A stretch of DNA of 64,000 bases, taken from positions 1,856,745 through 1,920,744 of the forward strand of contig NZ_KI421517.1 in the NCBI RefSeq assembly GCF_000473365.1, read 5' to 3'. The position numbers and the translations under genes were made by a program. The stretch is from Adhaeribacter aquaticus DSM 16391. GTDB taxonomy: Bacteria > Bacteroidota > Bacteroidia > Cytophagales > Hymenobacteraceae. How positions within the stretch are numbered: position 1 is the stretch's first letter; each line of letters opens with the position of its first letter. Of this stretch, positions 4,888-18,838 are shown in pieces. Under the pieces are notes generated by a model. It made no database searches and was not told the origin of the DNA. It worked only from the letters and a program-made list of their open reading frames with translations.

Positions 4888-6711
4888 TCAGCTTTTTGTA
4901 AACAAGGCATCCAACTGACCCATATCCATCATTACCAGCACTTTCTGTCCGGAGGGAGTATAGTTGGGTACCTGGGTGGCAAATAATCGATCCACCAGCG
5001 CATTTATTTCCAGCTCCGTCATACGCCTTACGAGCCGGGAAGCAACACGTTTAGCCATAGCCCGGGCGATATTTTCTTTTTTATCCAACGCCAGATCAGA
5101 ACGGTTATTCTGGTATTGTTCGATTAATCCTTCAAAAAGTTCTTTCTCCCGATTTGGAGGCACATCGGCAGGTATGCCATTTACCATAATAGTATTTTTA
5201 CCAAAATCACTGAACACAAAACCTAAGGCTCTGAATTCTTCTTTCAGTTCTTGTACTACAATAAAATCAGTAGGCGTAAACTGAACCACTTCCGGGAAAA
5301 GTAACGTTTGGGTAGCGCCTGAGTTCCGATGTAAAGCCGCAATAAACTTCTCGTACAAAATACGCTCCTGGGCAGCTTGCTGATCTACCAGCATCATACC
5401 CGATTTTACCTGCACCAACAAATACTTCTGATGAATTTGGATGGCTTTATTGCCGGAAGACCCTAATTCTTTTTGTTCCGGCAAGTCAAGATCCTCAAAA
5501 ACCAAAGGCGCATTACTTATTCTGGCAGTGTCTCTGGCAGGATTTTCTGGCCAGTTTTGAAAAATATTGGGTTTAAAAGCAGGCACTTGTTTGCGCTCTT
5601 GTGCCGGTGCCATTTCCTGATAAGTTGGAGCAGCCTTAAAAAACTCGGTATCAAAATCTGTTTTGATAGACCGGATAGGGGCAAAATTTACATCACCTTC
5701 AAAATCCAGCGACGGCGCAATATTATGCACCCCTAAAGATTGCCGAACAGCAGCCCGCACAATGGCATACACCGTTTTTTCATCCTCAAACTTTATCTCG
5801 GTTTTGGTAGGATGTACGTTTATATCAATACTGGCCGGATCTATTTCTAAAAAGAGCACATAAAACGGAAAAGTATCTTTAGGCAACAACCCTTCATAAG
5901 CGGTTACTACCGCATGATTCAGGTAAGAATTCCGGATGAAACGGTTATTTACAAAGAAGAACTGGTCGCCACGCGATTTTTTAGCGTACTCGGGTTTGCC
6001 AATGTACCCACTCACTTTTAAAGTAGGTGTATTTTCTTCGCAATTGGCTAATTGTTCTTTGTAATTGTTGCCAAACAAAGCCACTATCCGTTGGCTTAAT
6101 TTGGCCGCCGGTAATTGATAGATTTCTAAATCATTATTAAAAAGAGAAAAACTAATGTGCGGGTGCGACAGCGCCATCCGCTGAAACTCATCCAGAATAT
6201 GGCGCATTTCAACCGGATTAGATTTTAAAAAATTACGACGCGCCGGCACATTAAAAAACAGGTTTTTTACACAAATATTTGTACCATCGGGCATGGCCAC
6301 CGGTTCCTGCGAAACAACCTCCGATCCTTCAACAACCAGTTTAGTCCCTATATCAGAGTTTTGCTTTTTCGTTTTAAGCTCCACCTGGGCCACCGCCGCA
6401 ATAGAAGCCAGAGCTTCGCCCCGGAAACCCATTGTTTGAATCCGGAACAAATCTTCGGTAGACTTAATTTTGGAGGTTGCGTGCCGCTCAAAACTCATCC
6501 GGGCATCGGTCTCCGACATGCCTTTCCCATTATCAACCACCTGCACCAGCGTTTTACCAGCTTCCTTTACGATTAACTGGATTTGTGTACTCTCCGCATC
6601 AACCGCATTCTCCATTAATTCTTTTACAACCGATGCCGGTCTTTGTACTACTTCGCCTGCCGCAATCTGATTTGCCAGGTATTCCGGCAATAATTTTATT
6701 ATATCCGCCAT
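4888..6711 (-). CDS. mutL: DNA mismatch repair protein MutL
   Basis: A 607-residue mismatch-repair ATPase that couples MutS recognition to downstream excision. The N-terminal GHKL ATPase shows catalytic Glu31 and Mg-binding Asn35 in KELMENAVDA, DNGKGM as the ATP-lid motif, RHATSKI and GFRGEALASIA, then the MutL transducer domain with FVNNRFIRN and DINVHPTKTEI. A variable linker of about 90 residues leads to the C-terminal dimerisation domain. There the usual endonuclease motif DQHAxxExxxxE reads DQQAAQERILYE (from Asp443), and the CPHGRP-type motif reads TPSGQK (585-590). The copy may therefore lack the nicking activity of MutL from non-Escherichia lineages. The start MADIIKLLP fits the family exactly. 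Confidence 0.95.
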   Translation of the reverse strand: MADIIKLLPEYLANQIAAGEVVQRPASVVKELMENAVDAESTQIQLIVKEAGKTLVQVVDNGKGMSETDARMSFERHATSKIKSTEDLFRIQTMGFRGEALASIAAVAQVELKTKKQNSDIGTKLVVEGSEVVSQEPVAMPDGTNICVKNLFFNVPARRNFLKSNPVEMRHILDEFQRMALSHPHISFSLFNNDLEIYQLPAAKLSQRIVALFGNNYKEQLANCEENTPTLKVSGYIGKPEYAKKSRGDQFFFVNNRFIRNSYLNHAVVTAYEGLLPKDTFPFYVLFLEIDPASIDINVHPTKTEIKFEDEKTVYAIVRAAVRQSLGVHNIAPSLDFEGDVNFAPIRSIKTDFDTEFFKAAPTYQEMAPAQERKQVPAFKPNIFQNWPENPARDTARISNAPLVFEDLDLPEQKELGSSGNKAIQIHQKYLLVQVKSGMMLVDQQAAQERILYEKFIAALHRNSGATQTLLFPEVVQFTPTDFIVVQELKEEFRALGFVFSDFGKNTIMVNGIPADVPPNREKELFEGLIEQYQNNRSDLALDKKENIARAMAKRVASRLVRRMTELEINALVDRLFATQVPNYTPSGQKVLVMMDMGQLDALFTKS

Positions 6712-7103
6712 TACGTTCTCAGCAGGTTTTAGAAACTTTTAGGCCCACCATAAAGAATTTTGCATTTTTTGGGTGAGGTAAGTAAGTGCCTGAAAAAAAA
6801 TTTATTATTATTATTGCAAACGATTTTAGATAGGCAAGTGTTTTGCTATAGAATACTAGTAGCAAACGAACTGCTTGATTAAGTATGATTAACATTTTAA
6901 ACAGCTGCAATAAAGTTTCAGGAGAAAAAGCCATTGGGCTTCTCAAAGCAAAAAAGTTGTTTATCCATACTTCTGGCAAGTACCCATTTTAAAAAATGTA
7001 AATAGCTTACTTTAGAAAACAACCTGTTTGCCCGGCAAAATCTTTACATGCAAAATTAGATTTTATTCCGAGCTATTCAAATTACATATACCGGTTAGAA
7101 AAG
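6712..7103. other. intergenic region between divergent mutL and GH3 fusion gene
   Basis: 392 bases, strongly AT-rich, with no supportable gene. It must hold the start regions of the divergently transcribed mutL and GH3 genes. I saw no exact TAnnTTTG -7 element. The only local structure is a weak hairpin with a small bulge near 6930-6953. Confidence 0.5.
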
Positions 7104-11521: not shown

Positions 11522-13414
11522 ATGAGTAAAGACAAATATTTTATCATTGATTTCGACAGTACTTTCACGCAAGTAGAAGCTTTAGATGAATTAGGTGAAA
11601 TCTCATTACAAGGCGACGAAAACAAGGAGGAAATCCTGCAGGAAATAGTAAACCTGACCAATAGTGCCATGGACGGCAAAAGCTCGTTCACCGAGGGTTT
11701 ATCGAAACGTCTGGCTTTACTCAAAGCAAACCGCAGGCACTTGCAACCGCTTATTGCTCAATTAGAAACCAAAGTTTCTGAATCTGTTAAGCGCAACCGG
11801 GAATTCTTTAACCAATATGCTGATAATATTTTAATTGTATCCAGTGGGTTTAAAGAGTTTATTGTACCAATTGTAACCCAATACGGTATTAAAGAAGAAA
11901 ATATTTATGCCAATACTTTTGAGTACGACGAGCAGGGTAATATTGTAGGCTTCGATCCGTCTAATGTATTAAGTCTGGATAAAGGCAAAATTAAATTACT
12001 GGAAAACCTGGCTTTGCAAGGAGATGTGTATGTATTAGGTGATGGTTATACCGACTACGAAATTAAAGAAGCCGGCTTAGCCAATAAATTTTACGCCTTT
12101 ACTGAAAACATTGCCCGTGAAGCGGTAGTTGCTAAAGCTGAACATATCGCTCCCAGCTTAGATGAGTTTCTGTACCAGAACAAATTACCGATGGCTATTT
12201 CTTATCCAAAGAATCGTATTAGTGTTCTGTTATTAGAGAATATTCACCCAAAAGCGGTAGAGCTATTTAAGAAAGAGGGCTACCAGGTAGAAACCGCTAT
12301 TGGTGCCATGGAAGAGGATGAGCTTTGTGAGCGAATTAAAAACGTTTCTATATTAGGCATACGTTCTAAAACACAGGTAACCAAAAAGGTTTTAGCCAAT
12401 GCTAATAAATTAATGAGTGTTGGTGCTTTCTGTATTGGCACCAATCAGATTGATTTAACAGAATGTTTAAGATTAGGTATTCCGGCATTTAACGCACCTT
12501 ATAGCAACACCCGCAGCGTGGTAGAACTGGCTATTGGCCAAATCATTATGCTGGCCCGTAACATTTTCCCTAAAAGTGAAAAAATGCATAAAGGCATTTG
12601 GGATAAATCAGCGGCTGGTAGTTTTGAGGTTCGCGGCAAAAAATTAGGTATTGTAGGATACGGCAACATTGGTTCCCAGCTTTCTGTACTGGCCGAAGCG
12701 ATGGGTATGGAAGTTTACTATTACGATGTAGTAGAAAAACTACAGTTGGGTAATGCCAAGAAATGCAGTTCTCTGAAAGAGTTACTGGGCCTGGCTGATT
12801 TTGTAACCCTGCACGTAGATGGCCGGGCCAGCAACAAAAACTTTTTTGGTGCGGCTGAGTTTGAAGCCATGAAAGAAGGCGTAATATTCCTGAACCTGAG
12901 CCGTGGCCATATTGTAGATATTCCGGTTTTAGTTCAGCATATTAAATCAGGCAAGATCAAAGGAGCAGCAATTGATGTATTCCCGTACGAGCCCGTAAAT
13001 AATGCCGAAGAATTTGTAAATGATTTACGTGGGTTACCTAACGTTATTTTAACGCCTCATATTGGAGGTAGTACGGCAGAGGCGCAAGAGAACATTGCTA
13101 ACTTTGTTCCGAACCGGATTATGGAGTACATTAACTCTGGTAATACTTACCAGAGCGTAAACTTCCCTAACATACAGTTACCGGCTCTTACCAATGCGCA
13201 TCGCCTGATCCATATTCACGAGAATGTACCGGGTGTACTGGCAAATATTAACAATGTTTTAGCTAAAAACCACGTAAATATTCTGGGTCAGTATTTAAAA
13301 ACTAATGAACACGTAGGGTATGTAATCACAGACATTGATAAAGCATACGACAAAGAATTAGTTAATGATCTGAGAAGTATTGCCAACACCATTAAGTTTA
13401 GAATACTTTATTAA
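11522..13414 (+). CDS. serA: bifunctional phosphoserine phosphatase-like / D-3-phosphoglycerate dehydrogenase fusion
   Basis: A 630-residue fusion. Residues 1-220 are a HAD-superfamily domain of the SerB type: DFDST with nucleophile Asp10, VSSGF (motif II), a KGKIKLLE lysine segment and GDGYTD, where Thr replaces the usual Asn. Residues about 230-550 are 3-phosphoglycerate dehydrogenase: NAD-binding GIVGYGNIGSQ, NLSRGHIVD and the catalytic histidine in LTPHIGGST. Residues about 555-630 are an ACT domain (HENVPGVLANINNVL), the usual seat of serine feedback control. One chain would thus catalyse the first and third steps of serine synthesis, with the transaminase encoded just downstream. The phosphatase activity is inferred from motifs; the dehydrogenase is clear. 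Confidence 0.88.
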   Translation: MSKDKYFIIDFDSTFTQVEALDELGEISLQGDENKEEILQEIVNLTNSAMDGKSSFTEGLSKRLALLKANRRHLQPLIAQLETKVSESVKRNREFFNQYADNILIVSSGFKEFIVPIVTQYGIKEENIYANTFEYDEQGNIVGFDPSNVLSLDKGKIKLLENLALQGDVYVLGDGYTDYEIKEAGLANKFYAFTENIAREAVVAKAEHIAPSLDEFLYQNKLPMAISYPKNRISVLLLENIHPKAVELFKKEGYQVETAIGAMEEDELCERIKNVSILGIRSKTQVTKKVLANANKLMSVGAFCIGTNQIDLTECLRLGIPAFNAPYSNTRSVVELAIGQIIMLARNIFPKSEKMHKGIWDKSAAGSFEVRGKKLGIVGYGNIGSQLSVLAEAMGMEVYYYDVVEKLQLGNAKKCSSLKELLGLADFVTLHVDGRASNKNFFGAAEFEAMKEGVIFLNLSRGHIVDIPVLVQHIKSGKIKGAAIDVFPYEPVNNAEEFVNDLRGLPNVILTPHIGGSTAEAQENIANFVPNRIMEYINSGNTYQSVNFPNIQLPALTNAHRLIHIHENVPGVLANINNVLAKNHVNILGQYLKTNEHVGYVITDIDKAYDKELVNDLRSIANTIKFRILY

Positions 13415-13433
13415 TAAGTAATTATTATGTACG

Positions 13434-13482
13434 AAGTGCTAAGTCCTATATTAAACCCTTAATATGGACTTAGCACTTTTAA
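13434..13482 (+). terminator. stem-loop terminator between serA and serC
   Basis: A long inverted repeat AAGTGCTAAGTCC...TATTA / TAATA...GGACTTAGCACTTTT with a short CCC-containing loop, ending in a T-run. It lies in the 93-base gap between the two serine genes, so it may attenuate rather than separate their expression. Confidence 0.7.
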
Positions 13483-13507
13483 TTTTTATACCTACCTTTT
13501 CCCAATC

Positions 13508-14596
13508 ATGAACAATAAGATATATTTCACCCCGGGACCTTCTGAATTGTACCCTACGGTGCCTCAGCACATGCAAAGTGCAATGGCCAATAAAATTGGA
13601 AGTATCTCACACCGCAGCCAGCAGTTTAAAGATATTTATGCTCACACCGAAAAAGAGCTGCGCCAGTTGCTGCAATTACCCGATAATTTCGAAATATTAT
13701 TTTTATCCTCGGCCAACGAAATTTGGGAACGGGCTATTCAGAACACAGTAGAATCTGAAAGTTTTCACCTGGTTAACGGTTCTTTCTCCAAACGTTTCTA
13801 TGAAATATCGCTGGAGCTAGGTAGGAAAGCCACCAAGTATGAGGCCCCTTTCGGCGAAGGTTTTCCTATTGATCAGATTGAAGTTCCGGCAACCGCAGAA
13901 TTGGTAGCGGTAGTACAAAATGAAACCAGTTCCGGTGCTGCTACGCCGGTTGAGGCTATTAATCAGCTGCGGTCAAAAATTAATCCGGAAGCTTTATTAT
14001 TTGTAGATGCAGTTTCGTCTATGCCGCACCCGGCTTTTGATTATAGCCAGATAGATTCTGTATATTTTTCGGTACAGAAGTGCTTTGGTTTACCCGCAGG
14101 TTTAGGTGTTTGGGTTTTAAATGACCGTTGCATTGCTAAAGCCGAAGCGTTAAAAGCTAAAGGTTTATCTATTGGTTCATTTCATAGCATTCCTTCTTTA
14201 TTAAGCAAAGCCAAAGGCTATCAGAACCCTGAAACACCAAATGTGCTTAATATTTACTTATTAGGTCAGGTGGCAGAAGAAATGAACAAGAAAGGCATTG
14301 AGGTGATCCGGCAGGAAACGGAAACCAAAGCTAAACTGGTTTATGAGTATGCCGCCAACAGCCAGACATTTGACATTGCCGTTAAGGAACCGGCACATCG
14401 CTCCGCTACTACTATTATCCTTAACACAAAAGTGTCTTCTGCCGAGGTTATTAAAAAACTGGCGCCTTTTGATATGGTAGTGGGCAGTGGTTACGGCAGT
14501 TACAAAGATGCTCAAATAAGAATTGCCAATTTCCCGGCCCATTCGGTAAGCCAAATGCAGGCTTTGGTTTATAAACTACAAGAGCTATTTGGATAA
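13508..14596 (+). CDS. serC: phosphoserine aminotransferase-like class V aminotransferase
   Basis: A 362-residue PLP-dependent class V aminotransferase (fold type I). It starts MNNKIYFTPGPSELYPTV, with the TPGP motif shared by SerC and alanine-glyoxylate transaminases. Next come SISHRS, NETSSGAATP, VDAVSSMPH with the PLP-ring Asp, and the Schiff-base lysine in SVQKCFGLPAG. It lies directly after the SerB-SerA fusion, which supplies 3-phosphohydroxypyruvate, so the SerC role (making phosphoserine with glutamate) is strongly suggested by context. From sequence alone an alanine-glyoxylate-type activity cannot be excluded. A hairpin at 14617-14653 closes the unit. Confidence 0.85.
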   Translation: MNNKIYFTPGPSELYPTVPQHMQSAMANKIGSISHRSQQFKDIYAHTEKELRQLLQLPDNFEILFLSSANEIWERAIQNTVESESFHLVNGSFSKRFYEISLELGRKATKYEAPFGEGFPIDQIEVPATAELVAVVQNETSSGAATPVEAINQLRSKINPEALLFVDAVSSMPHPAFDYSQIDSVYFSVQKCFGLPAGLGVWVLNDRCIAKAEALKAKGLSIGSFHSIPSLLSKAKGYQNPETPNVLNIYLLGQVAEEMNKKGIEVIRQETETKAKLVYEYAANSQTFDIAVKEPAHRSATTIILNTKVSSAEVIKKLAPFDMVVGSGYGSYKDAQIRIANFPAHSVSQMQALVYKLQELFG

Positions 14597-14822: not shown

Positions 14823-15854
14823 CTATTTTAATAAATACTTAGTTTGATTAAAATTGTAGTTTAAGCCTAAAACTAAACGTCCGGCACTGGATGGGTGATT
14901 GGTTGCAGCTTCATACACGGGTAATTGGGCAGCTAAATTAAGGGAGATGTTTTTATAGAATATATCTACTCCTGGTCCTAGCAAAGCATTCTTCATTTGA
15001 TGTTCGCCGGTTAATTCTCCGTTCAACATTTCCCCTTTAGTGTTCTCATAAAAGAACTGAGCTGATGGCACGATCAACCAGTTGGGGTTGGGGTTAAAGC
15101 GGTAAAATAAATTTACAAATTGCGCTGTACTATTGGCAATACCTTCCTGGTAGTAATTTTGCCCGTTCAGTTTATAACTGGCATTAATACTCAGACCTAT
15201 TTTTCGATAGCCAATAATATAATTGATGTAGGTAAAATAATCTACCGCACCGGTTCCGGGCTGTAAAAGCAACGGATACCGTACACCTTCTGCATCTTTT
15301 TTATAATAATGTCCGGTTGGCAGTTTTACCCCACCACCCGCAATTAATCGTTGTTGAGCACCAGCTACTTCTATTTTGCGCAACAAATGGTAACCAGCAA
15401 ATAAATTAATATCCCCTATACCCGTCAGGGAGGTTGTGCTGCCATCGGTGCGGCTGGTATTCATGGTATAGGGCACATAAGCATTTAGTTCAAGGCGTTT
15501 ATGAATAAAATATTTGCCCCGTACTTCAATAACCCGATAGGCTTCATAATCCTGTGCATTATTGCCGTGATCGTGCGCTCCTGTACCCGGTGCATGCGTA
15601 TGGCTATGGCCATTTTCTCCCTGCGCGCCCGGATACAAGACATTCACGCCGTGTGGGAAAAACTGTTTTTTTTGTCCTAAATGGGAATAGCCGTTAAAAA
15701 TCCGGTATCGGTGCATTATGCCGATGGTGCTTTGATTATCGTAAGGCGTAATGCCCATAAAGCAACCACAAATATCACAGGCTTGGCTTGTTTCTGTTAT
15801 TAGGCATAAAACACCTAATATTACTAATTTACTGATGTTGAGAAAATTTCGCAT
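14823..15854 (-). CDS. outer-membrane beta-barrel protein with CDICGC motif and His-rich segment
   Basis: A 343-residue exported protein. A signal peptide ends before CDICGCFMG, so three closely spaced cysteines lie at the mature N-terminus. Residues about 75-105 carry a His-rich stretch (GHSHTHAPGTGAHDHG), suggestive of metal binding. The rest alternates aromatic beta-strands (YFTYINYIIGYRK..., LNLAAQLPVY, then a final GLNYNFNQTKYLLK), typical of an outer-membrane barrel. It overlaps the 3' end of the di-heme peroxidase gene by 26 bases, so translation is probably coupled. I know similar CDICGC proteins as companions of MbnP-family and cytochrome c peroxidase genes in Bacteroidota. No biochemical role is established. 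Confidence 0.65.
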   Translation of the reverse strand: MRNFLNISKLVILGVLCLITETSQACDICGCFMGITPYDNQSTIGIMHRYRIFNGYSHLGQKKQFFPHGVNVLYPGAQGENGHSHTHAPGTGAHDHGNNAQDYEAYRVIEVRGKYFIHKRLELNAYVPYTMNTSRTDGSTTSLTGIGDINLFAGYHLLRKIEVAGAQQRLIAGGGVKLPTGHYYKKDAEGVRYPLLLQPGTGAVDYFTYINYIIGYRKIGLSINASYKLNGQNYYQEGIANSTAQFVNLFYRFNPNPNWLIVPSAQFFYENTKGEMLNGELTGEHQMKNALLGPGVDIFYKNISLNLAAQLPVYEAATNHPSSAGRLVLGLNYNFNQTKYLLK

Positions 15855-16872
15855 TGGTTAAAAATTCCTGATCGGTAAGGGTTTGTAAAAAAGCTATAAT
15901 ATCAGATTGTTCTTCAGGGGTTAAAGCAATTCCTGGAGAGGCATTGGTTTGGAGTAAGGGATCCAGCGTAGCAGATGTTTTTACGCCATTAACATAATGG
16001 TTTAATACCTGCTTCAGGTTTTGAAAGCGTCCATCATGCATATAAGGACTGGTAACAGCCACATTACGCAAACTAGGCACTTTAAATTTACCGGCATCCG
16101 CAGCATTATTAGTAATTAAAAACCGGCCTTCGTCCTTTCTGAAATCAGTGTCTAAACCGTTGTTGCGGTAACTAAAATCTGTAAATAAGTCAGTGGCGTG
16201 GCACGAACCACATTTGTTCTTAAATACTTGTAATCCGTTCAATTCGGCAGTAGTTAAACTCCCGCCTCCATTCTGTACATATTTATCGTACCTGGAGTTA
16301 GCCGAAACCAATAAGCCCATGAATTGGGATAGCGCCCGAAATAGTTGCTGGCTATTTATACTATCTCCTCCAAACACCGCCCGAAACTGTTTTGGATATC
16401 GCTTATGATTATTTAATTTTTTAATAATAGTCGTAAGTTTAGCATCCATTTCAACCGGATTGGTAATTGGTACCAGCGGCACCATTTCCAGGTGGTTCAC
16501 TCCCCCATCCCAAAAAAACTCCGGTTGCCAGGCTAAATTGGCTAATGCGGGTGAGTTGCGGGTTCCTAATTTGTCTTCAATGCCATGGCTAACTTTGTGC
16601 CCTAAATCTGCAAAACCAGAAAACTGCTTATGGCAACCTTCACAGGAAATAGAATTGTCGCGAGAGAGAATTGGATCATAAAACAAGGCGCGACCCAATT
16701 CAAAGCCTGCTTTGGTAACCGGATTATTTTTAAAAACAGGTTTTGGCGGTGGAAAATTAGCCGGCACCTCCAAGGTGTAATCCAAGGAAGGTGCTTCTGG
16801 TTCAGTACCACAAGCCCATACTAGCCAAAGCAATGCCCACATTGCCAGTAGCCTTTTAACTAAGTGCCACAT
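15829..16872 (-). CDS. di-heme cytochrome c peroxidase family lipoprotein (MbnH/CcpA-like)
   Basis: A 347-residue di-heme c-type cytochrome of the CcpA/MauG superfamily. The lipobox LVWACG predicts a lipoprotein facing the periplasm. Two heme-attachment sites are present: CEGCH (N-terminal domain) and CGSCH (C-terminal domain). Also visible are FYDPILSRDNSISC, the LGTRNSPALANLAW segment and PYMHDGRF, standard for bacterial di-heme peroxidases. It lies 15 bases downstream of a MbnP-family gene. In methanobactin operons the homologous pair MbnH/MbnP works together, MbnH oxidising a tryptophan of MbnP, so a MbnH-like role is plausible. Simple H2O2 detoxification is the alternative. Confidence 0.85.
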   Translation of the reverse strand: MWHLVKRLLAMWALLWLVWACGTEPEAPSLDYTLEVPANFPPPKPVFKNNPVTKAGFELGRALFYDPILSRDNSISCEGCHKQFSGFADLGHKVSHGIEDKLGTRNSPALANLAWQPEFFWDGGVNHLEMVPLVPITNPVEMDAKLTTIIKKLNNHKRYPKQFRAVFGGDSINSQQLFRALSQFMGLLVSANSRYDKYVQNGGGSLTTAELNGLQVFKNKCGSCHATDLFTDFSYRNNGLDTDFRKDEGRFLITNNAADAGKFKVPSLRNVAVTSPYMHDGRFQNLKQVLNHYVNGVKTSATLDPLLQTNASPGIALTPEEQSDIIAFLQTLTDQEFLTNAKFSQHQ

Positions 16873-16887
16873 ACTTTAGTATTCCGT

Positions 16888-17661
16888 TTAATAATGGATA
16901 TGATCCACTTTAAACATGGCGGTGTAGTTATCGGCAATGGTTACTGCCTTAGGTCCACCCATTGCCGTATTCAGTTCGCTAAACTTTATGTTAGTAGGTC
17001 CCTGGAACATTTCCAGTAAATCAACTTTCAGGTGGACATCGGGCGTTTTAGACGTTTTAATAGTTATTTTCTCACCATGTAGGGTTGGGCTTACAGTGCG
17101 GATGGTATTGTTAGGTTTCTTAAAGCCCCCAATATGGAAAACCAAATTCCCGTTGGTAGTAGATTGCGGAGAAGTTCCTTCCATTTTCAGAAAAATATAA
17201 CCGGTATTCCAGGACCAAAACATTTCGTTTGCCGGATCTAATGCCCCGGTTTGGGCACCACTCGTATTACGGGCACTATCTACCCCTATGGTAAAAGTTA
17301 TTTTATTATACTCCCCAGTGGGGATATTAGGAATTGTTATGTGGCGGGAAACAGCTTGGCTATGATCAACCAAGTAATAGCTTTCCGGTTGCTTAAATTC
17401 CTGGCCGTTGGTTTTGGTCAGAATAAGATTGCTGATGTAATATCTAAAGGTAGTCACCTGAAAAGCATCCTGGTTCGCGTTCCGGTAGGTTGGACCTTGA
17501 CGGGTCTCTCCCACCAAAACCAAGGGCTCATTACCAACTACGTTTTCAAATTCCAGGCTCAACGACCCAGTTCCGGTAGGTTCTTCCGGATCTTTTTTAC
17601 AACTGGTAAATGAAATAGATATAAATAAAGATACAAGATAAAAGTATTGCGTAAATTTCAT
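16888..17661 (-). CDS. MbnP family lipoprotein
   Basis: A 257-residue lipoprotein (lipobox FTSC after a short signal peptide) with the MbnP-like domain. Recognisable stretches are TTFRYYISNLIL, GEYNKITFTIGVD, the GALDPANEMFWSWNTGYIF segment with two tryptophans, NLVFHIGGF and a C-terminal MFKVDHIHY. MbnP proteins are periplasmic and copper-associated, and their partner di-heme enzyme (MbnH) modifies a tryptophan to build a copper site. The di-heme gene follows immediately here, so the pair is conserved. Copper as the ligand in this organism is an inference from the family. No methanobactin biosynthesis gene is visible nearby. Confidence 0.82.
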   Translation of the reverse strand: MKFTQYFYLVSLFISISFTSCKKDPEEPTGTGSLSLEFENVVGNEPLVLVGETRQGPTYRNANQDAFQVTTFRYYISNLILTKTNGQEFKQPESYYLVDHSQAVSRHITIPNIPTGEYNKITFTIGVDSARNTSGAQTGALDPANEMFWSWNTGYIFLKMEGTSPQSTTNGNLVFHIGGFKKPNNTIRTVSPTLHGEKITIKTSKTPDVHLKVDLLEMFQGPTNIKFSELNTAMGGPKAVTIADNYTAMFKVDHIHY

Positions 17662-17878
17662 AAGATTAAACTGCTAAATAATAATTAGATGCTGGTATAA
17701 ACCTGTAGTAGTCAGCCACTGAAAGAAAAATCATTGCTGGCGCTGGATAGCCGAAACCAAGCTTGAATCTTCCATAAAATGCTTTGCTGTTCTAGTCCAA
17801 AACAGGAACAGACAGCATGATTTGAATGAGGTGATTCGGAATCGAAAAACCCATTTTAAATAAACCAGAAATTACAAG

Positions 17879-18304
17879 TTAACAGTTTAACCGGGGCGGT
17901 TGGAAAATAGCGGCAAAAGCCGAAAATTGGTAAGTGTTGGAGTAGACTTGAATATTTTTCCTTTTCTCCTTAGCTACTGCAAAATCTAAAATAGCTGCTG
18001 GCGACCAAAGCCATACTAATTCAAATTTCTCTTTACTATTGGTAGGGAAAGATTGTTTTTCTGCTTCGTCGGTTTTCTTTAGTTGCTTAACTAAGTAGCA
18101 CTTTCCGTGACATTTTAAAACCGGGGCATCTTTATTCTCGCAAAGCGTGGCGGCTATATAAGCTTTATCTAGTTGGTAATTAATAACCACCAATGCCTTT
18201 CCAAATGATTGGATCAGGATTAAGGTTACCAAAAATAGAACAAAACTTTGCTTCACCGAATTAGAATAATGTCGCAAAAATACACGGCACTTCCGGAAAA
18301 GCAA
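17879..18304 (-). CDS. small membrane-anchored protein with CENK..CxGKC motif
   Basis: A 141-residue protein with one N-terminal hydrophobic segment (FVLFLVTLILIQSFG) and an exported region carrying LCENKDAPVLKCHGKCYLVKQLKK, that is, three cysteines with a conserved CxGKC core. I recall similar short cysteine-motif proteins next to metal or redox genes in Bacteroidota, but I cannot name the family. It sits 217 bases upstream of the MbnP gene and 9 bases downstream of another minus-strand gene, in the same direction. A role in metal binding or thiol chemistry is possible but unproven. Confidence 0.6.
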   Translation of the reverse strand: MLFRKCRVFLRHYSNSVKQSFVLFLVTLILIQSFGKALVVINYQLDKAYIAATLCENKDAPVLKCHGKCYLVKQLKKTDEAEKQSFPTNSKEKFELVWLWSPAAILDFAVAKEKRKNIQVYSNTYQFSAFAAIFQPPRLNC

Positions 18305-18313
18305 AGTTAAAAT

Positions 18314-18838
18314 TTAAAATACCTGATTGATTTCCTTTTTCAGGAAGCTAATGGCCTGACTGGTGGGTTCTGTATCAGTAGTAATTACAGTTTCTAATAT
18401 ACGACGGGCCAGTTCTGGTCCTTTTGCTTCGGCGGGTAATTCCTGGTAAATGCGATTCACTAAGGTTACCATATCTTCTTTGGCCCGCTTTACCATTTGC
18501 CAACCCTGATCGCTCATATACATTTGCTGCGAAAGATTATGGGTATATTCATTCCGGATCTCTGATAACAAAACCCGTTGGTACTCGGCAGCCGTTTGGC
18601 CGCCACTGCTCACCCGTACAAGTAAATTACTCGGCGAAATACGCTCCAGAAAAAGGCAGATACGTTCGTATGCCTGCAGCCTGATTGGCAATACTATTTC
18701 GGTGTTTTTAATGCGTATTTCTAATAACCGCTTCTGGTATTCTTTCTTGAGGAATGAATTGATAACTGAATACATACCAAATAAGACTAAGGCAGCAGGC
18801 AGCAAAATTTTTAAAAGGTCGTATATGTAATTAACCAT
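18314..18838 (-). CDS. conserved hypothetical protein with one N-terminal membrane helix
   Basis: A 174-residue protein. Residues about 5-27 form a hydrophobic helix (LLKILLPAALVLFGMYSVI), followed by a charged, helical cytoplasmic region with QAYERICLFLERISP, SEIRNEYTHNLSQQMY and ARRILETVI. Such proteins are common in Cytophagales without an assigned function. It lies just upstream of the CxGKC protein gene (9-base gap) and may share its transcript. Nothing in the sequence reveals an enzymatic motif. Confidence 0.7.
   Translation of the reverse strand: MVNYIYDLLKILLPAALVLFGMYSVINSFLKKEYQKRLLEIRIKNTEIVLPIRLQAYERICLFLERISPSNLLVRVSSGGQTAAEYQRVLLSEIRNEYTHNLSQQMYMSDQGWQMVKRAKEDMVTLVNRIYQELPAEAKGPELARRILETVITTDTEPTSQAISFLKKEINQVF

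Follow-up and report, generated by a model that had tools for sequence, protein, structure and literature searches.

Leader open reading frames (ORFs) that sense copper are a known kind of element, and one of the closest examples to the ORF analyzed here is CruR of Bordetella pertussis, an upstream ORF of the DUF2946 family (PF11162). In the part of its description consulted (PMC9426467), CruR is copper-repressed through Rho, encodes an exported-looking small protein with a Cys pair and a di-proline motif just before the stop codon, is followed by a long gap, and heads copper operons with TonB-dependent transporter (TBDT), PepSY_TM, Sco, PCuAC and MbnPH-like genes. In this work we describe a small ORF with a CxGKC motif that shares these general traits and heads a minus-strand operon in Adhaeribacter aquaticus DSM 16391 (Bacteroidota; assembly GCF_000473365.1), within a stretch of 64,000 nucleotides (contig NZ_KI421517.1, positions 1,856,745 to 1,920,744; hereafter the window). 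Judged by profile and motif, it belongs to a leader family separate from DUF2946. We think it likely that the unit serves under copper starvation and carries a sensor that is read during translation, where a ribosome stalled at a Pro-Pro (PP) motif would open an RNA stem before the next gene.

Other described systems share parts of this arrangement. CutF of Rhodobacter capsulatus, as presented in the part of PMC9973294 consulted, combines a CxxxC motif, a C-terminal proline-rich motif, Sec export and an RNA stem that hides the downstream ribosome-binding site (RBS). In the same source, 19% of a rule-based list of CutF-like proteins (list D) are from Bacteroidota, or 40% when normalised, and this list may include the family described here. 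The source also summarises the scheme of SecM/secA and related arrest peptides, where a ribosome stalled at a C-terminal Pro motif opens a stem at the next gene. With respect to the downstream genes, a WxW-containing MbnP family with an adjacent di-heme MauG-like enzyme is found in methanobactin producers, and the existence of MbnPH pairs far beyond these organisms has already been published (PMC3621798, consulted in part). Little was found in the literature searched on copper acquisition and its control in Bacteroidota, with nothing direct on copper limitation (including the parts consulted of PMC9723704 and PMC9478572), and no publication on the leader family, its stem or its MbnPH operons was found in open-access full texts.

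Organization of the operon

From 5' to 3', the minus-strand unit consists of the small CxGKC ORF, MbnP, the MbnH-like di-heme enzyme and a 12-stranded barrel. Its elements are:

18302..18309, minus strand: promoter motif TAACTTTG, an exact TAnnTTTG match, 45 nt 5' of the GTG of the leader ORF
17879..18256, minus strand: leader ORF, GTG start by comparison with relatives; hydrophobic N-terminal segment, C39-x9-C49-x3-C53, C-terminal IFQPPRLNC
17879..17892, minus strand: 5' arm of the stem, GGTTAAACTGTTAA, last leader codons after PP plus the stop codon
17664..17677, minus strand: 3' arm of the stem, TTAGCAGTTTAATC, 3-16 nt before the MbnP ATG; proposed masked translation-initiation region
16888..17661, minus strand: MbnP-family lipoprotein, PF20243 match, with W149, W151 and H176
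15829..16872, minus strand: MbnH-like di-heme lipoprotein (MauG/CcP superfamily) with two CxxCH motifs, CEGCH and CGSCH
14823..15854, minus strand: beta-barrel of the outer membrane, COG4313/FapF fold class; CDICGC follows the signal peptide, and one loop is rich in His

The four ORFs and their CDICGC, CEGCH and CGSCH motifs are thus as originally predicted. Counted from its first TTG the CxGKC ORF covers 17879-18304, and from the GTG 17879-18256; 217 bp separate it from MbnP, the MbnP-to-di-heme spacing is 15 bp, and the di-heme and barrel genes overlap by 26 bp. The leader promoter motif sits directly 3' of the stop of a DUF7935 protein gene (18314-18838, also minus strand), whose end is 57 bp 5' of the leader start codon. 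No Rfam element was present in the window at the gathering threshold, and sigma-70-type promoters and intrinsic terminators were rejected, their occurrence not being above that in shuffled sequence.

A leader family with cysteines at a near-fixed distance from a C-terminal PP

No significant Pfam or NCBIfam match was obtained for the 125-aa leader ORF. A profile built from nine leaders located the family in 143 of 395 Bacteroidota genomes (68 of 171 genera) and in 116 of 150 genomes of one genus, with one significant match in the host genome. Of the leader matches, the 150 listed were used, more existing, and sequence was fetched for all but 4 of these places. In all, 172 loci, window included, contain 163 distinct members; leader starts were set by rule (ATG 76, GTG 45, TTG 40).

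The CxGKC motif noted in the original prediction is present, but the telling features had gone unmentioned, namely a third, upstream cysteine, which makes the cluster C-x9-C-x3-C, and a C-terminal F-x-P-P. The C-x3-C lies 60-95 residues from the C-terminus in 162 of the 163 members, and 161 of these 162 have PP within the last 16 residues, compared with 16 of the 920 other ORFs that reach 200 aa in the same loci. The two members outside the PP count are L195, in which 50 residues separate the Cys motif from the C-terminus, and L166, in which PP is more than 16 residues away from it. PP lies 61-73 residues after the last Cys (median 66, sd 2.2), the residue before PP is His, Arg, Gln or Lys in 135 of 161 leaders and is itself preceded by Phe in 125, and 147 have 2-4 residues after PP. 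Three Cys and a Gly occur without exception in the 161, the spacer between the first and second Cys being x9 in 150 and six, seven or ten residues long in 11. The Cys cluster has a high information content, most of the stretch 62-117 a low one, with Phe 91 and an acidic residue at position 80 standing out, and FxPP again a high one, a pattern that would fit an arrest peptide and not a folded chaperone.

The loci had been fetched with the full profile, PP included, and a profile lacking the C-terminus, used to re-read these same loci, recovers the same 163 ORFs. PP was also present in 16 of 17 leader hits from loci fetched via MbnP, 8 of the 17 being profile seeds, and in all 45 new members of a later genus set, again fetched with the full profile. 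Two leader ORFs stand in direct succession in L091 (around 5995-6999, minus strand) and L137 (around 5989-6912, minus strand), where they may be serial sensors on one operon.

Promoter position and downstream genes

In Bacteroidota, TAnnTTTG is the -7 promoter motif. Exact copies were found within 150 bp upstream in 91 of 161 leader loci and in 8 of 151 gaps after the ORF, the upstream ones at a median of 24 nt before the leader start. The density of the motif is 4.0 per kb upstream (0.65 in single-base shuffles) and 0.37 per kb after the ORF (0.73 in shuffles), promoters being called here from the -7 motif. Same-strand ORFs upstream of the leader are varied (n=116), the largest similarity cluster having 8 members.

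What follows the leader is varied too, within a copper-linked repertoire. The first downstream gene (n=161) encodes a TBDT (55 loci), MbnP (53), a YtkA-like protein (16), the barrel (10) or SCO1 (8), among others, and the next five same-strand genes include TBDT, MbnP, MbnH, barrel, PepSY_TM, YtkA, SCO1, PCuAC or Fe/Mn superoxide dismutase (SOD) in 152 of 161. Gene clusters were named from one Pfam-scanned representative each, those of MbnP, MbnH and the barrel by their containing the genes of the window. Nine of the 161 leaders had no copper-linked cluster in the next five genes, and no same-strand gene was accepted for six; L003, L081 and L088, among these six, do have MbnP and belong to the loci (4 of 163) in which an opposite-strand call came first.

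Ten of the 55 first-gene TBDTs were scanned, and five best match the TonB-copper receptor family TIGR01778 at 200-276 bits (cut-off 472), the other five being closest to TonB-siderophore receptors. The TBDT and PepSY_TM pairing is present in part of the leader-headed TBDT operons; the receptor under CruR in Bordetella is reported to transport copper, and in most loci PepSY_TM genes come after it (PMC12914433, consulted in part), and much of the target list found here repeats the CruR operon partners (PMC9426467). Tandem arrays also occur, in the orders leader-YtkA-TBDT-leader-MbnP and leader-SCO1-SOD-leader-MbnP. Fe/Mn-SOD lies inside leader-headed operons at 13 loci, several with SCO1 (e.g. 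L063, L064 and L070), as expected if a copper-free SOD were made under copper starvation.

Pairing between the end of the leader and the next start

Complementarity between the leader's stop region and the initiation region that follows the gap far exceeds chance, but only about half of the loci have a clear helix. In the window, the gap folds at -64.2 kcal/mol (z = -3.5, with 1 of 200 shuffles as good, for this gap only), and in its outer stem 17892-17879 pairs with 17677-17664 through 14 pairs, including two G-U. Tests across the family covered gaps of 60-420 nt, that is, 126 of the 161 loci after removal of duplicates, with starts set by the first ATG in control gene pairs and by a signal-peptide rule in the leader set. 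A two-dimensional scan with 24-nt windows gave a single peak, formed by the leader end and the 24 nt before the next start, where the pairing excess was -2.76 +/- 0.33 kcal/mol over the 126 loci; outside its neighbourhood the excess stayed within about -0.9 kcal/mol. By first gene, the value at the peak was -3.60 +/- 0.48 for MbnP (45 loci) and -3.16 +/- 0.52 for TBDT (48 loci), and 139 other adjacent gene pairs gave -0.23 and -0.45 kcal/mol at the nearest places tested.

Counts of uninterrupted helices point the same way. Helices of at least 8 pairs occur in 61 of 126 loci (mean 19.4 and maximum 32 in 200 mismatched-locus permutations), of at least 10 pairs in 35 (mean 3.8, maximum 11) and of at least 12 pairs in 23 (mean 0.95, maximum 4). 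The 8-mer spanning the stop codon has its exact complement in the initiation region of its own locus in 15 of 126 cases, where 0.7 are expected, and 6-mer complements peak at -9 to -3, being at or below expectation at -18, at -24 and from +6 on. In the later genus set, helices of 10 or more pairs were found in 15 of 42 loci (permutations: mean 3.2, maximum 8).

The proteins encoded after the leader

In MbnPH systems the di-heme enzyme oxidises an MbnP tryptophan, building a copper site. The MbnP of the window matches PF20243 with 208.4 bits, above the Pfam gathering cut-off of 27, and scores 59.4 bits with the equivalog TIGR04052, below its curated cut-off of 140. Loss of the tryptophans had been named as a result that would count against the original prediction; W149 and W151 (WxW), as well as H176, are invariant in the 60 aligned sequences. 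The model of MbnP has pLDDT below 50 around the WxW pair, so no metal-site geometry was taken from it. The di-heme enzyme matches PF03150 with 181.8 bits, its best NCBIfam match is TIGR04039 (the MbnH family) with 229.5 bits, under the curated cut-off of 362.85, and its best PDB match is the di-heme enzyme 6e1c (E 3e-42); both CxxCH motifs are invariant across 63 di-heme proteins. In agreement with the original observation that methanobactin genes are missing, the genome (99.34% complete) has no match to the MbnB family (PF05114), MbnC not having been searched for.

The PF20243 search found MbnP in 97 of 395 Bacteroidota genomes, and at least 49 of 121 MbnP matches have a same-strand leader match within 6 kb upstream, among the leader matches listed. 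The co-occurrence of the genes held: where MbnP is first after the leader (53 loci), the di-heme gene comes next in 52 and is accompanied by the barrel in 38. Among the 72 MbnP places without a listed leader match, 31 were fetched, all of them with a di-heme gene nearby, and the leader profile found a leader in five. The barrel was present in only two of the remaining 26, one of these being on a short contig, the other having an unscored small ORF ending in FHPPEVLPV just upstream. Leader and barrel therefore tend to co-occur, as markers of one kind of MbnPH operon. The near-constant pairing of MbnP with MbnH and the invariant tryptophans support, as far as sequence comparison goes, a copper-related role of the three genes.

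The barrel protein has no Pfam or other family match. Its AlphaFold2 model shows 12 strands (mean pLDDT 74.1, with residues 16-33, which hold the Cys motif, below 50), and Foldseek matched it to the COG4313 channel 4rl8 (E 3.6e-10), with a VIA-align Z of 25.4 and an rmsd of 2.2 over 248 residues; FapF is also close. The modelled barrel would thus share its 12-stranded fold with COG4313 channels and FapF, from which it differs in the CDxCGC of its mature N-terminus, the lack of a Pfam match and its own operon context. Across 53 aligned sequences, conservation in this motif is 91% for the first two Cys and 77% for the third. The His-rich loop was rejected as a conserved metal site, each of the histidines at 83-96 being kept in no more than 19% of the 53. 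The loop is not a family feature. The barrel itself is conserved as a partner of the pair in a subset of loci and may take part in copper handling.

Proposed mechanism and alternatives

The original prediction was that the four proteins may form a distinct copper system. An MbnP/MbnH-type pair outside methanobactin loci, with a conserved WxW and in a copper-related setting, agrees with it, but the CxGKC protein does not appear to be a fourth metal-handling partner: because of its conservation pattern, the near-fixed Cys-to-PP spacing, the promoter motif, the varied copper-linked targets and the base-pairing, we read the ORF as a cis-acting leader. Transcription would start just 5' of this ORF, and the ribosome would make a short chain, probably exported given its hydrophobic N-terminus, and slow down or stall at F-x-P-P a few codons before the stop. 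Paused with PP in its P and A sites, it would cover or enter the 5' arm of the stem, whose start directly follows the PP codons. MbnP's initiation region would be freed in this way, and MbnP, the di-heme enzyme and the barrel translated. Cysteines located some 66 residues back would, by distance, be past the ribosome tunnel and in or beyond the Sec channel, near its outer side, so that the cluster could meet periplasmic metal. Plentiful copper would bind the cysteines of the nascent chain, end the stall and let the stem close, stopping translation of the operon; this sign is proposed because the targets look like acquisition and delivery genes. The products would form a periplasmic and outer-membrane copper-handling set, by analogy with MbnPH, probably with oxidation of an MbnP tryptophan.

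Several observations weigh against this mechanism. No expression, stalling or metal data for the family were found in the literature searched, the FxPP of the leaders lacks the Arg-Ala of proven RAPP arrest peptides, and the three cysteines might respond to redox conditions or to a different metal. Among the targets, Fe/Mn-SOD and siderophore-like TBDTs are not copper-specific, and the MbnP and MbnH-like proteins fall below curated NCBIfam cut-offs. In 79 of 163 loci the leader has a same-strand gene ending no more than 150 bp upstream (no more than 50 bp in 30), which makes read-through into the leader possible. As for the stem, 65 of 126 loci have no helix of 8 or more pairs, the excess is weaker (-1.08 +/- 0.62) at the 33 loci where a gene other than TBDT or MbnP comes first, and there is no stem at three SCO1 loci. 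Pairing is also seen in the 139 control gene pairs, directly behind the stop (-1.58 +/- 0.38 and -0.77 +/- 0.23), a small 6-mer excess is also seen at -30 (6 versus 1.4), and the type of stop codon hardly predicts its complement (TAA p 0.036, TAG p 0.056, TGA p 0.46). In the genus set, the number of 8-pair helices (22 of 42) equals the permutation maximum of 22 (mean 15.3) and is not significant.

Control as in CruR, with a stalled ribosome blocking Rho and its release leading to termination of transcription in the gap before MbnP, would account for a long gap after the leader (217 bp here, with a family median of 111), like the 162-bp gap of CruR in the consulted text (PMC9426467), and for the excess of C over G in 104 of 151 gaps (mean C 0.187 and G 0.145; 0.171 and 0.172 in the upstream regions). 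Rho, however, has no need of a positioned pairing between stop and initiation regions, and the gap is shorter than 70 nt in a quarter of the loci, so we regard this explanation as unlikely. That the CxGKC protein works as a membrane-anchored copper-binding protein passing metal to MbnP or the barrel seems very improbable to us: its invariant cysteines, hydrophobic N-terminal segment and steady link with copper-linked genes would suit such a donor, but most of residues 62-117 vary freely at near-fixed length, with conservation resuming at FxPP by the stop, the ORF comes first before varied copper-linked genes, and its stop region pairs with the next initiation region. Neither the variable spacer nor FxPP, the leading position or the stem pairing would be expected of a chaperone.

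The same nascent-chain switch might instead respond to zinc, heme, or the periplasmic redox or export state. A disulfide, or binding of other soft metals, is conceivable for C-x9-C-x3-C, half of the ten scanned TBDTs are most like siderophore receptors, and RAPP-like leader ORFs have been described before sec and yidC genes (PMC10987492, consulted in part). Against a signal other than copper, which we judge rather improbable, stand the recurrence of SCO1, PCuAC, MbnPH and TonB-copper-like receptors among the targets and the sharing of these companions with the copper-responsive CruR operons, as far as these are presented in the part of PMC9426467 consulted.

Comparison with known leader systems

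The preferred reading, a copper-sensing leader acting through the stem, can now be set against its precedents. CruR, in the text consulted, has CXXC and RAPP about 45 residues apart and is described as acting through Rho, whereas the present leaders have C-x9-C-x3-C and mostly F-[HRQK]-PP, 61-73 residues (about 66) apart, and a stem at the downstream start. Homology to DUF2946 was rejected: neither the leader of the window nor 8 relatives matched this family at E up to 1, and profile comparison with DUF2946-type proteins of Bacteroidota, of which only 4 were used, gave a probability of 0.3%. CutF differs, in its consulted description, in that copper turns on a multicopper oxidase through it, a sign opposite to that expected here from targets of acquisition and delivery, and in that, for the present family, the last codons of the leader itself supply the 5' arm. 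With SecM the difference would lie in the signal, export status in that case and presumably a metal in ours. The operon departs from those of methanobactin producers in the lack of an MbnB-family gene in the genome, in its sub-threshold NCBIfam scores and in the extra barrel and leader ORF.

According to a 2025 survey, leader ORFs of the RAPP/RGPP type linked to copper are absent from Bacteroidota, among other groups. Four of the collected loci, L203, L204, L206 and L209, encode DUF2946-like proteins with CxxC and, 43-47 residues on, a C-terminal RGPP or RAPP, only L203 and L204 passing the Pfam cut-off; the phylum thus seems to hold at least two such leader types. In Flavobacterium psychrophilum, the mRNA of the bfpR receptor begins upstream of a small hypothetical gene, and bfpR mRNA increases with haemoglobin while that of the small gene does not, with no start site detected between the two in the part of the report consulted (PMC9331221). 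This pattern would fit leader control. No asd gene was found in the collected loci, which gave no link between bfpR and the leader family.

Taken more broadly, the family may represent a separate Bacteroidota class of metal-sensing arrest peptides, a view toward which we lean slightly. Its members would sense copper through three Cys about 66 residues from FxPP, unmask the next RBS region and govern, in about a third of the phylum, a copper-starvation regulon of uptake receptors, PepSY_TM, SCO1, PCuAC, MbnPH with the barrel, and a copper-free SOD. With such leaders, probable copper-starvation genes could be recognized from sequence alone in roughly one third of the genomes sampled, and the leaders could be a new case of convergent nascent-chain metal sensing with specific mutable sites (three Cys, two Pro and the 14-pair stem), besides offering those working on MbnP a regulatory handle on uncharacterised MbnPH operons.

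Elsewhere in the window, a 630-aa protein encoded at 11522-14596 (plus strand) has a HAD phosphatase-like domain fused to a 2-hydroxyacid dehydrogenase that carries an ACT domain, and resembles SerB and SerA in one chain. It is followed by a class V aminotransferase, probably SerC-like, the two suggesting a compact serine pathway.

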